Notes under the pieces: generated by a model
Database searches by the model: none
What the model saw: the letters and a program-made list of their open reading frames with translations, nothing else
Told to the model about the DNA's origin: nothing
Shown here: piece after piece, positions 1-4,315 of the stretch
Numbering within the stretch: the stretch's first letter is position 1
Layout: each line of letters begins with the position of its first letter
Made by a program: the position numbers and the translations under genes
NCBI GenBank assembly: GCA_015493585.1
Contig: WGCW01000155.1
Location: forward strand, 1 to 33,825
Length of the DNA: 33,825 bases
Origin: Acidobacteriota bacterium
GTDB taxonomy: Bacteria; Acidobacteriota; Thermoanaerobaculia; Thermoanaerobaculales; Sulfomarinibacteraceae
Reading direction: 5' to 3'

Positions 1-3
1 GGT

Positions 4-157
4 GGCAGGTGCCGTGGCTGGCGGTGTGCTCGCAAGGTGTGTGAGCGCAGGCGTGCTTGCGGCACGTCGAGCGAGCACATCGAGAACGCGTCGCCAGACA
101 TGGTGCATCCCACCCTGCAGCAGATGGAGGGTGAATCATACGGGCCAGGCCGTGGTG
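4..157 (+). repeat. 154-bp direct repeat, copy A (candidate structured RNA)
   Basis: This block recurs at 372-525, offset 368 bp, with a single difference (A112 versus G480). The folding signal is strong. Bases 9-23 pair with 92-106 (one G/A mismatch, some wobbles), 25-33 pair perfectly with 71-79, 50-56 pair with 62-68 around a TTGCG loop, and 111-116 pair with 128-133. The only difference between copies changes an A-U pair to a G-U pair in the last stem, so the fold is kept. The short open frames across it are not conserved as proteins. I do not recognise it as a known RNA family; tmRNA, RNase P and the common riboswitch cores were considered and not matched. Confidence 0.85.
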
Positions 158-206
158 CAAGCCACGGCCTGGGGGGAGTGGGCCCATGGCGGCTTGGCCG
201 CCATGG
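145..206 (+). other. Two consecutive perfect hairpins
   Basis: CCAGGCCGTGG (145-155) pairs with CCACGGCCTGG (162-172). The left arm belongs to the repeat and the right arm is unique to copy A. CCATGGCGGC (184-193) pairs with GCCGCCATGG (197-206). Neither is followed by a T run, so they are not intrinsic terminators. They may be RNA stems or protein-binding palindromes. Confidence 0.7.
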
Positions 207-289
207 CGAGGGGGGCGGATGACCCCCTCGCCGCGGGGTGTGGAGGGAGGGGGCCGCGGGCGATGTCGCCGCCGGGAAGTTGTTTCGGG

Positions 290-318
290 ACGCCCCGCGC
301 AAGCGGGGCGTTTTTCTT
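290..318 (+). terminator. Intrinsic terminator after repeat A
   Basis: The stem is ACGCCCCGC (290-298) with GCGGGGCGT (303-311), a GCAA tetraloop and a T-rich tail (TTTTTCTTT from 311). It separates copy A from copy B and nifJ. Confidence 0.85.
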
Positions 319-371
319 TGTATGGGCGGCGAGCTAGCCCGTATGAGTCATCAGTCATCGTCGCGAAGGGA

Positions 372-525
372 GGCAGGTGCCGTGGCTGGCGGTGTGCTCG
401 CAAGGTGTGTGAGCGCAGGCGTGCTTGCGGCACGTCGAGCGAGCACATCGAGAACGCGTCGCCAGACATGGTGCATCCCGCCCTGCAGCAGATGGAGGGT
501 GAATCATACGGGCCAGGCCGTGGTG
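372..525 (+). repeat. 154-bp direct repeat, copy B (candidate structured RNA)
   Basis: This is the second copy of the block at 4-157, starting 54 bp after the terminator of copy A. Homology stops sharply after CGTGGTG in both copies. Copy A continues into a perfect hairpin, while copy B runs into the leader of the pyruvate:ferredoxin oxidoreductase gene. The strand is inferred from the terminator that follows copy A. A tandem pair could be two independent small RNAs or a paired cis-acting element; the sequence alone does not decide. Confidence 0.85.
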
Positions 526-742: not shown

Positions 743-3700
743 ATGGCAGCAAAGAGAAGACAAGTCATGATCGATGGGAACGAGGCCGCCGCGTCGGTTG
801 CGCACCGCCTCAACGAGGTCTGCGCGATATACCCGATCACGCCCTCCTCCCCGATGGGAGAGTGGGCAGATCTGTGGTCGTCTGAAGGAAAGACCAATAT
901 CTGGGGCGCTGTGCCCGAGGTGATCGAGATGCAATCTGAAGGGGGCGCATCCGGCGCCGTGCACGGCTCGCTGCAGGCCGGCGCGCTGACGTCGACCTTC
1001 ACGGCGTCCCAAGGGTTGCTCCTGATGATCCCGAACATGCACAAGATCGCCGGTGAGCTGACCTCGACGGTTTTTCATGTGGCGGCACGGACCGTTGCCA
1101 CCCACGCGCTGTCGATCTTTGGGGATCATTCCGATGTGTACGACTGCCGGGCGACCGGTTTTGCGATGATGCCCTCCGGCTCGGTTCAGGAGGCGCACGA
1201 TTTCGCGTGCATCGCGCAGGCGGCTTCGCTGAAGAGCCGGATTCCGTTTCTCCACTTCTTCGACGGATTCCGGACCTCACACGAGGTTTCGAAGATCGAG
1301 GAGCTGAGCGACGATGATCTGCGCTTCATGGTCGACGAAGAGATGGTTCAGGCCCACAAGAAGCGCGCGTTGCTTCCCGACCGGCCGTTCATCCGTGGAA
1401 CCGCCCAGAACCCGGATGTCTTCTTCCAGTCGCGTGAGGCGATCAACACCTACTACGACGCGTGTCCCGGCATCGTTCAGGATGTCATGGATCAGTTCGC
1501 GTCGTTGACCGGACGGTCGTACCACCTTTTCGACTACGTGGGCCATCCCGAGGCCGAACGCGTGCTGGTGATCATGGGATCGGGCGCCGAAGCGGCCCAC
1601 GAGTACGTGGAGTGGGCCGTCGAGCACGGCGACAAGGTTGGCCTGATCAAGGTGCGGCTCTTCCGGCCATTCTCGAAGAGGCACCTCATCGAAGCTCTGC
1701 CAAAGACCGTGCGCAAGATCGCCGTGCTTGACCGCTCGAAGGAGCCCGGATCGGCCGGTGAGCCGTTGTACCTCGACATCCTGACGGGCCTTGTTGAAGC
1801 TCAGGCGGAAGGCCTGACGAACTTTGAAACGCAACCGCAGGTGTTCGGTGGGCGGTACGGCCTCTCGTCGAAGGAGTTCAACGCCGCTATGGTCAAGGCG
1901 GTCTACGACAATCTGGCGGCGGAGCAGCCCAAGAACCACTTCACCGTTGGCATCGTCGACGATGTGACGTTCACCTCGCTTCCGGTCGATGATGACTTCG
2001 ACATCGAGCCGGACGACGTGTTCCGCGGGATCTTCTTCGGCCTTGGCTCCGATGGGACCGTCGGTGCGAACAAGAACTCGATCAAGATCATCGGCTCGGA
2101 AACCGACAACTACGCGCAGGGCTACTTCGTCTACGACTCGCGCAAGGCCGGCTCCGTCACGGTCTCTCACCTGCGTTTTGGCCCCAAGCCGATCCATTCG
2201 ACCTACCTGATTCGCAAGGCGAAGTTTGCCGGCTGCCACCAGTGGGTGTTCCTCGACAAGTACGAAATCGCCGAGCACCTCGTTCCCGGCGGAACGTTGC
2301 TCGTCAATTCGCCATTCGGACCGGACGAGGTCTGGGACCAGCTCCCGGTCGAGGTCCAGCAGCAGATCGTTGAGAAACAGCTGAAGCTCTACGTCATCGA
2401 CGCGTACTCCGTCGCCAAGAAGGCGAAGATGGGCGCCCGCATCAATACGATCATGCAGACCTGCTTCTTCGCCATCTCCGGGATCCTGCCCCGTGACGAG
2501 GCGATCGCCAAGATCAAGGACGCGATCAAGAAGACGTACGGGAAGAAGGGCGACGAGGTTGTGCAGCTCAACTTCAATGCCGTGGATCAGACGCTGGCCA
2601 ACCTTCACGAGGTCAAGGTGCCGGGCACGATCACGGCGACCCGGCACCGTCCCCCGATCGTTCCGGAAGAGGCACCGGACTTTGTCAAGAAGGTGACCGC
2701 GATGATGATCGCCGGCAAGGGGGACCTCCTTCCGGTCAGCGCCTTCCCGCCCGATGGGACGTGGCCCTCCGGCACAACGCAGTGGGAGAAGCGGAACATT
2801 GCCCTCGAGATTCCGGTCTGGGACGAGGAGCTCTGCATCCAGTGCAACAAGTGCGCGATGGTCTGCCCGCACGCGGCGATTCGTGCGAAGGTCTACCCCG
2901 CCGATGAGCTCAAAGACGCTCCGGCCACCTTCAAGTCGGTCGACTACAAGGGTGCCGATTTCAAGGGCTACAAGTACACGATCCAGGTAGCCCCCGAAGA
3001 CTGTACCGGCTGTACGCTGTGCATGCGCGTCTGCCCGGCGAAGGACAAGACCAACCCGTCGCACAAGGCCCTCGACATGCACCCGCAGATGCCTTTGCGG
3101 GAAACCGAGCGTGAGAATTTCGCGTTCTTCCTCGACATCCCCGATCCGGACCGGACGAAGATCAAGCTCGACGTCAAAGGTTCCCAGTTCCTCCGCCCGC
3201 TCTTCGAATTTTCCGGTGCCTGCGCGGGGTGCGGTGAAACGCCATACATCAAGTTGGTCACCCAGCTCTTTGGTGACCGGGCACTGATTGCCAACGCAAC
3301 CGGCTGCTCGTCGATCTACGGAGCGAACTTGCCGACAGCTCCGTATACGTTCAACGCCGAGGGCCGTGGTCCCGCGTGGTCGAACTCGCTCTTCGAGGAC
3401 AACGCCGAGTTCGGCCTCGGCTTCCGGCTCGCCGTCGATCAGAACACCGAATATGCGCGGATGCTCCTCAAACGGCTGGCCTCGAAAGTCGGTGAGAACC
3501 TCGTGACGGACATCCTCGAGGCGCCGCAGAACACGGAAGAGGAGCTTCGGGCTCAGCGCGAGCGGGTGGCTGCCCTCGCCGCAAAACTCAAGGCGATCGA
3601 TGATCCGGATGCGCGGCGCTTGGAGATTGTCAAGGACTACCTCGTGCGGAAGAGTGTGTGGATCGTCGGCGGCGACGGCTGGGCCTACGACATCGGCTAT

Positions 3701-4315
3701 GGCGGCCTCGATCACGTTCTGGCCATGAACAGGGATGTCAACGTGCTCGTGCTCGATACCGCCGTCTACTCCAACACCGGCGGCCAGGCGTCGAAGGCAA
3801 CGCCGCTTTCGGCAACGGCCAAGTTCGCGATGTCGGGCAAGGAGATCGAAGGCAAGGATCTTGGCATGATGGCCATGGCCTACGGTCATGTCTACGTTGC
3901 GCAGGTGGCGTTCGGCGCCAAGGATGCGCAAACCGTCCGGGCCTTCACTGAAGCCGAGTCGTACCACGGTGCATCGCTCATTGTTGCCTACTCTCACTGC
4001 ATCGCACACGGGTATGGCCTTGAGGACGGCCTTGATCATCAGAAACTGGCCGTTGATTCCGGGTACTGGCCGCTGTACCGCTTCGACCCGAGGCGTGCAG
4101 CCGCCGGCGAGCCGCCGCTCAAGTTGGATTCCAGGGCGCCCAAGGTGCCGTTCGAGCAGTACGCCATGACGGAGACCCGGTTCCGGATGCTGACAAAGAG
4201 CCACCCGGAACGCGCCAAGGAGCTGGCGAAAAAGGCCCAGAGGATGGTCAACGCCCGCTTCGATGTGTACCAGCAGCTGTCGAAGCTCGTCCTCCACGAG
4301 AAGCCGGAGGAATGA
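743..4315 (+). CDS. nifJ: Pyruvate:ferredoxin (flavodoxin) oxidoreductase, one-chain type
   Basis: The enzyme oxidatively decarboxylates pyruvate with CoA to acetyl-CoA and CO2 and passes electrons to ferredoxin or flavodoxin in the cytoplasm; it is a TPP and three-[4Fe-4S] enzyme. The protein is 1190 residues, normal for the fused form. YPITPSSPMGE (residues 30-40) marks the N-terminal pyrimidine-binding domain. Two ferredoxin-type clusters lie near residues 698 (CIQCNKCAMVCP) and 754 (CTGCTLCMRVCP). CAGCGE near 826 and GDGWAYDIGYGG, VYSNTGGQAS near 975-1020 form the TPP domain and proximal cluster. The ATG at 743 is chosen because AGGAGG (732-737) sits 5 bases before it and the protein then starts in the family's usual place; the longer open frame upstream is not family-like. 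It stands alone between the repeat region and a strong terminator. Confidence 0.97.
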   Translation: MAAKRRQVMIDGNEAAASVAHRLNEVCAIYPITPSSPMGEWADLWSSEGKTNIWGAVPEVIEMQSEGGASGAVHGSLQAGALTSTFTASQGLLLMIPNMHKIAGELTSTVFHVAARTVATHALSIFGDHSDVYDCRATGFAMMPSGSVQEAHDFACIAQAASLKSRIPFLHFFDGFRTSHEVSKIEELSDDDLRFMVDEEMVQAHKKRALLPDRPFIRGTAQNPDVFFQSREAINTYYDACPGIVQDVMDQFASLTGRSYHLFDYVGHPEAERVLVIMGSGAEAAHEYVEWAVEHGDKVGLIKVRLFRPFSKRHLIEALPKTVRKIAVLDRSKEPGSAGEPLYLDILTGLVEAQAEGLTNFETQPQVFGGRYGLSSKEFNAAMVKAVYDNLAAEQPKNHFTVGIVDDVTFTSLPVDDDFDIEPDDVFRGIFFGLGSDGTVGANKNSIKIIGSETDNYAQGYFVYDSRKAGSVTVSHLRFGPKPIHSTYLIRKAKFAGCHQWVFLDKYEIAEHLVPGGTLLVNSPFGPDEVWDQLPVEVQQQIVEKQLKLYVIDAYSVAKKAKMGARINTIMQTCFFAISGILPRDEAIAKIKDAIKKTYGKKGDEVVQLNFNAVDQTLANLHEVKVPGTITATRHRPPIVPEEAPDFVKKVTAMMIAGKGDLLPVSAFPPDGTWPSGTTQWEKRNIALEIPVWDEELCIQCNKCAMVCPHAAIRAKVYPADELKDAPATFKSVDYKGADFKGYKYTIQVAPEDCTGCTLCMRVCPAKDKTNPSHKALDMHPQMPLRETERENFAFFLDIPDPDRTKIKLDVKGSQFLRPLFEFSGACAGCGETPYIKLVTQLFGDRALIANATGCSSIYGANLPTAPYTFNAEGRGPAWSNSLFEDNAEFGLGFRLAVDQNTEYARMLLKRLASKVGENLVTDILEAPQNTEEELRAQRERVAALAAKLKAIDDPDARRLEIVKDYLVRKSVWIVGGDGWAYDIGYGGLDHVLAMNRDVNVLVLDTAVYSNTGGQASKATPLSATAKFAMSGKEIEGKDLGMMAMAYGHVYVAQVAFGAKDAQTVRAFTEAESYHGASLIVAYSHCIAHGYGLEDGLDHQKLAVDSGYWPLYRFDPRRAAAGEPPLKLDSRAPKVPFEQYAMTETRFRMLTKSHPERAKELAKKAQRMVNARFDVYQQLSKLVLHEKPEE

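Follow-up and report, generated by a model that had tools for sequence, protein, structure and literature searches.

A dispersed family of ERIC-like miniature mobile elements with strand-specific structure in Acidobacteriota

Introduction

The window analyzed here (33,825 nt; positions 1 to 33,825 of the forward strand of contig WGCW01000155.1, assembly GCA_015493585.1, from an acidobacterium of the family Sulfomarinibacteraceae) opens with two nearly identical, apparently structured sequences, the second of which precedes a metabolic gene, nifJ. Does this arrangement denote an RNA that belongs to the gene or a repeat that has come to lie beside it? A sequence-only reading had described a tandem 154-nt structured RNA of unknown family, with an implied tie to the nifJ region. 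The choice bears on more than this locus: covariation and a position upstream of a gene can both come from a mobile repeat, so dispersal should be checked before a regulatory RNA is called.

Limits and parts of the repeat

The direct repeat comprises positions 1-160 and 369-528 (98% identical, spacing 368). Within the 154-nt units first noted (4-157 and 372-525) the sole difference is A112/G480, and the differences T3/A371 and C158/G526 lie at their edges. The near identity and spacing of the copies thus stand as described, but the limits had to be moved. When 63 copies were aligned with their flanks, conservation extended from about 334 to 516 and was absent past either limit, and the last 9 bp of the noted repeat (149-157 and 517-525) are flanking DNA common to both copies. 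Because these 9 bp are shared as well, the two copies, denoted A and B, look like the product of one local duplication that included the flank, not of two insertions. The contig start cuts off the first 35 nt of copy A, and since the "tandem" rests on this contig end, the arrangement could be partly an effect of assembly. That the pair is altogether an artefact of repeats collapsed or mis-joined at the contig end nevertheless appears unlikely: the contig does start within copy A, and relatives, too, have several copies at contig ends, but the sequence that separates A from B occurs only once in the genome, three positions distinguish the copies, and copy B by itself is intact. The parts of the element, defined with the help of a model (R1) built from 42 full-length copies and of two alignments, A1 and A2, the latter consisting of 30 mostly distant copies, are as follows.

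1..148, + strand: copy A, the 183-bp element without its first 35 nt, the contig starting inside it (R1 positions 36-183, 132.7 bits)
334..516, + strand: copy B, a complete 183-bp palindromic mobile element (limits from the 63 aligned copies; R1 match end to end, 177 bits)
334..337, + strand: left target-site tetranucleotide CTAG (from the sequence; YTAR at empty sites of other copies)
338..359, + strand: left terminal inverted repeat CCCGTATGAGTCATCAGTCATC (inverted repeat I3; outer helix in A1 and A2)
358..366, + strand: conserved left-arm box TCGTCGCGA, incompletely complementary to the facing right-arm box (A1 and A2 consensus)
422..432, + strand: apical hairpin, GUGC..GCAC in copy B and GUAC in many copies (A1 pairs 89-99, 90-98 and 91-97)
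485..491, + strand: conserved right-arm box GCAGCAG (A1 and A2 consensus)
491..512, + strand: right terminal inverted repeat (inverted repeat I3; outer helix in A1 and A2)
513..516, + strand: right target-site tetranucleotide CCAG, probably a diverged CTAG (from the sequence, by comparison with other copies)

The ends of the element accordingly read CTAG-CCCG(G/C)ATTATTCA and its inverse.

Dispersal in Acidobacteriota

A blastn search with copy B detected further copies in the same genome and up to 15 per relative. With R1, 15 matches were obtained in the genome of the window and between 3 and at least 44 per genome in its relatives of family f1, among which G015 is the only genome searched without a match. 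In G008, a pattern consisting of the ends only yielded 134 matches compared with 1 for a control pattern, which would imply about 70 elements in this genome. Matches at an E-value of 1e-4 or better were found in 16 of 149 Acidobacteriota genomes, most of them end to end and typically 180-185 nt long; the repeat occurs in scattered families across the phylum. The distant copies share the ends, the left-arm box TCGTNGCGA, the right-arm box GCAGNAG and the apical GUAC hairpin, and have diverged in the remainder. Nothing was found when plasmids, phages and viral contigs were searched for the element.

Copies adjoin unrelated genes in both orientations and about three quarters of them lie between predicted genes, as judged from rough home-made gene calls. 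By the same rough calls, left neighbors are in sense orientation in 43 of 65 cases and right neighbors in antisense orientation in 35 of 62, so that, roughly, 3' ends of genes are favored and no single orientation of the element is. About 18 of 70 copies abut a gene predicted by these calls whose stop codon is contained in the end CTAG, TTAG or TTAA (e.g. L012, L013, L019, L032, L055, L068 and L118), as if stop codons were frequent insertion targets.

Several length variants of 230-300 bp in G008 (L229-L234) carry nested inserts that begin with TAGGGACATCGCGC and have hairpins of their own. The right flank of L130 (G008:C108) and the left flank of L132 (G008:C347) belong to two other dispersed repeat families of genus g8, with dozens of matches each.

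Relation to nifJ

743..4315, + strand: nifJ, the gene for pyruvate:ferredoxin oxidoreductase, beginning 226 nt past the element at a start placed by homology (Pfam POR families; homology with G001)

The assignment of the downstream gene as pyruvate:ferredoxin oxidoreductase (PFOR/NifJ), made in the sequence-only reading, is borne out by the Pfam POR families. Its implication that the element belongs to this region did not hold. Copy B shares the strand of nifJ and precedes it by 226 nt, as a riboswitch or leader of this gene would, but among 18 nifJ start regions scanned (that of the window and those of 17 relatives) the element is present only in the window's own, being absent in the sister species G001, where homology begins at 613, past the element, and in 16 other relatives. 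Furthermore, the element shows no conserved position upstream of a class of genes, its copies have the unrelated neighbors described above, and Rfam offers no match. The element is therefore not a nifJ element, there is no conserved link between the two, and a cis-regulatory RNA of nifJ, refuted as a conserved function, appears extremely improbable. The failure of the initial reading to recognize a known RNA class agrees with the Rfam search, which gave no match above the gathering threshold in the window, the distant copies or G005:C70; low-scoring matches to miRNA and sRNA families were attributed to chance.

Empty sites and target duplication

The four g8 genomes were searched with the joined flanks of 13 elements of this genus, and several of the matches run straight across the junction with about 4 extra bases. 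In the clean case, the filled site ttttggc[TTAG..TTAG]gaaag corresponds to the empty site ttttggaTTAGgaag with one TTAG; at other empty sites, the element is missing and a single YTAR-like tetranucleotide is present, CTAA, CTAT, CTAG, TTAA or TCAG. Since the left tetranucleotides are often mutated, it is mainly the one clean case that bears on whether 2 or 4 bp are duplicated. Given these precise empty sites in sister species, with a single YTAR tetranucleotide, the element is mobile. The site in the window itself may have an empty counterpart in another genus: a segment of G005:C70 has ..GGTGACCTACGCCGCGG.. where the window has ..GGCGAG-CTAG-element-CCAG-GCCGTGG.., and reads as an empty version of it. 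Copies also decay, as seen at a locus where the full copy of G001 (L045) corresponds to a truncated one in G000 (L042). The RNA of unknown family originally proposed thus gives way to a mobile element, with dispersed copies, empty sites and, as shown below, the ends of an IS1380-family element.

Two further observations concern individual loci. Next to the full copy L045 (G001) and the truncated copy L042 (G000:C57), the right end of the element (ATGCGGGCG..) contains an ATG at which the downstream ORF appears to start. Neighboring copies at L054 (G005:C207) and L073 (G002:C360) seem to have a single CTAG-like tetranucleotide in common, as though the end of one had been the insertion site of the other.

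A candidate mobilizer

A remnant of an IS1380-family transposase (NF033539, 5e-38) was identified in a 1.23-kb element of G024:C211, from the same order. The ends of this element are CTAGCCCGGATTATTCGCCATAG and CTAGCCCGTTCTATTCACCATAG, or, with the flanking CTAG, CTAG-CCCGGATTATTCGCCATAG and CTAG-CCCGTTCTATTCACCATAG, and the 16 letters with which it starts (CTAGCCCGGATTATTC) recur as the consensus end in the 183-bp family. G022:C4 contains a second IS1380 fragment, which begins with CTAGCCCGGATATCTCACC. On account of these matching ends, IS1380 elements are the best candidate mobilizers, and it is likely that an enzyme of this type moves the 183-bp family. Family f1 contains few matches to PF13701 (IS1380), and those in family f2, which belongs to this order too, are stronger; the search of the window's genome revealed no IS1380 transposase, and the IS copies with matching ends are broken and come from another family of the order only.

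Other partners were considered and rejected. The PF13701 copies in G002 and G005 have ends that do not match, and no IS-sized pairs of ends occur among the matches listed for G005 and G008. For IS630 (DDE_3), to which the RUP elements have been linked (PMC2229807), no gene was found in 13 of 15 f1 genomes, including G000 and G008, and the family differs from RUP in this respect. Y1 transposases of the RAYT type are present in 16 of 20 f1 genomes, do not track copy number and were not found in G000, G008, G018 and G019. One copy of the element (L167, G001:C100) lies near a Y1-type transposase gene, which may be a coincidence.

Taken together, the short length, the lack of a transposase gene of its own, the dispersed copies, the terminal inverted repeats, the target duplication with empty sites and the IS1380 partner within the order make it probable, in our judgment, that the element is a non-autonomous 183-bp MITE with IS1380-like ends that is likely mobilized by an IS1380-type transposase. 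The transposase would most likely act in trans, cutting at CCCG..., and insertion would occur at YTAR targets (CTAG, TTAG, CTAA) with duplication of about 4 bp. In the window, a single insertion beside a structured segment would have been followed by duplication of the element together with its flank.

Conserved structure and its strand

The element is indeed structured, and covariation across homologs supports this far beyond what a single sequence could show. The predicted fold is more stable than those of shuffled sequences (z of -3.2 for the repeat alone and -6.0 for 1-318). The particular fold initially proposed was partly in error, its coordinates not having included the left arm (334-371). 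The right-hand hairpin of that fold, as best reconstructed from the minimum-energy structure (479-487/493-501), is not conserved, with 57.1% of its cells paired compared with 56.7% after shuffling. Likewise, A112/G480, interpreted at the time as an A-U to G-U change that preserves a stem, provides no evidence of this kind because, in the conserved fold, base 480 faces 371, forming U-A in copy A, whereas copy B has an A.G mismatch there.

For A1, RNAalifold predicts one interrupted hairpin of 53 pairs, 42 of which are changed on both sides, with an outer helix formed by columns 4-20 and 168-184; at the apical pair 90-98, 21 copies have GC and 20 have AU. In this alignment 91.8% of the cells are paired (79.0% after shuffling), and the covariation score is 0.445, compared with 0.220 for shuffled alignments and 0.08-0.11 for slid registers. 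In A2, 47 of the 55 pairs have changed on both sides, 94.0% of the cells are paired, and the covariation is 0.662 against 0.241 after shuffling. The constraint is specific to one strand, the RNAalifold value being -65.3 compared with -4.9 for the reverse complement. Non-canonical pairs are strongly biased, with G-U to A-C ratios of 218:57 in A1, a figure partly inflated by the use of an RNA folding model in the choice of pairs, and 180:19 in A2, the strand of which was picked by the RNA model, with the sequence boxes giving the same orientation; under a strand-neutral choice of pairs the ratio is 77:39. Because G-U on one strand is A-C on the other, neither duplex DNA nor symmetric mutation can produce such an excess, so a single-stranded form of one strand is constrained. 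This is strong evidence for strand-specific constraint on a folded single strand, of which RNA would be the simplest reading, single-stranded DNA being possible. In A2 the bias is far stronger in the interior (162:12) than in the outer arms, where it is weak (18:7); this would suit ends that serve the transposase as a duplex and an interior that serves as a folded strand. Mobility as a MITE does not explain the covariation of the interior because a transposase needs only the ends.

Three further accounts of the structure have to be weighed against these data. Template-switch correction of quasi-palindromes in replication is known in bacteria and gives matched changes on both arms, as expected for a long palindrome with many copies, and would make the element an ordinary, self-repairing MITE with arm pairing kept by a DNA process. 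Such correction is strand-symmetric and should not favor G-U over A-C as is observed; moreover, the facing mismatched boxes TCGTNGCGA and GCAGCAG are conserved, not corrected to complementarity, and the excess is weaker in the outer arms, whose duplex form is what a transposase reads. We therefore regard this account as improbable. The strand-specific structure over the whole length, the tetranucleotide at the foot of the hairpin and the frequency of Y1 transposases in f1 would also suit spread through a folded single-stranded intermediate, either DNA with a Y1 (RAYT-like) transposase or RNA with a reverse transcriptase, the hairpin being the substrate of mobility. This scenario appears even less probable given that the four genomes in which Y1 was not found are rich in copies, that the cleanly duplicated TTAG fits cut-and-paste better than Y1, and that the ends match IS1380 directly. 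A broader possibility, which we consider doubtful though less so than the preceding two, is a phylum-wide selfish element, possibly a distant relative of ERIC, in which the single-stranded hairpin, most likely RNA, is itself selected through an RNA or single-stranded DNA intermediate or through binding to a protein of the host or to the transposase, mobility and RNA structure having coevolved. Under the preferred interpretation, a MITE moved by an IS1380-type transposase, the hairpin would matter as RNA after read-through transcription, as has been proposed for ERIC and Correia/NEMIS, for instance by rendering insertions harmless or through recruitment of RNases.

Comparison with known repeat families

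ERIC/IRU/RU-1 are small palindromic units with TA at their ends, target duplication and a stable stem-loop (PMC2229807, PMC2759123). The family described here resembles them in its size of about 100-200 bp, the imperfect palindrome that spans the whole unit and forms one long stem-loop, the TA-containing ends, the target duplication, the intergenic location and the tens to hundreds of copies. By analogy, the 183-bp element would work like an ERIC-type MITE; membership in ERIC itself is a separate claim. It differs from ERIC in length (183 vs 127 bp), in its CTAG-CCCG ends and in having an IS1380-like partner, and its sequence is unrelated at the blastn level, as far as tested; we know of no established mover of ERIC. 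On 844 bp of E. coli sequence, the best match of R1, a weak one (9.2 bits, E 0.014), falls exactly on an ERIC and is suggestive only as a hint of kinship.

With the IS1380 family the element has in common the CTAG-flanked 16-mer of G024:C211, and it differs in having no transposase gene and in its folding interior, which is not seen in the IS. IS1247, a member of that family, generates a 5-bp duplication (PMC3281130), compared with the apparent 4 bp here. As in Correia/NEMIS and RUP, a MITE with inverted ends forms a hairpin in the (here predicted) transcript; transcripts of the known families form hairpins, and RNase III cleaves those of NEMIS (see the review PMC10969869). The palindromic organization, the foot tetranucleotide and the structure on one strand recall the REP/GTAG repeats associated with RAYT transposases (PMC3733652), although REPs are 20-40 bp long compared with 183 bp and copy number is not tracked by Y1 in the present case. 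Intergenic multicopy palindromic families have also been reported as a feature of Geobacter genomes (PMC2700814, PMC2996986) and are similar in these respects. In the literature searched we found no earlier description of the 183-bp family, a weak negative given that the Geobacter families were compared by description only.

The 183-bp repeat defines a family of miniature mobile elements that is new but of a known, ERIC-like kind, and its strand-specific structure is unusually deep. For 35 years, palindromic repeats of the ERIC type have lacked a settled mover and a settled reason for their structure. The combination of tens of copies per genome, a matching partner of the IS1380 type, insertions that differ between sister species and strong evidence of selection on the fold of one strand makes it testable why such repeats keep their hairpin.

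The segment between the copies

149..319, + strand: separate structured segment between the copies, outside the element, which is inserted beside it (similar DNA at the contig end of G005:C70)
287..314, + strand: intrinsic-terminator-like hairpin of this segment

The strong terminator once assigned to the end of copy A does exist as a terminator-like hairpin, but it begins 139 nt past that end and belongs to this separate conserved segment. The segment, for which Rfam gave no match, is possibly an undescribed RNA. It is similar to G005:C70 (L240), from another genus, with 83% identity over 90 nt and 94% over 47 nt, the blocks being in permuted (tandem-like) order; in the first 84 nt, none of the 29 predicted pairs is broken in this comparison and 2 are doubly changed.
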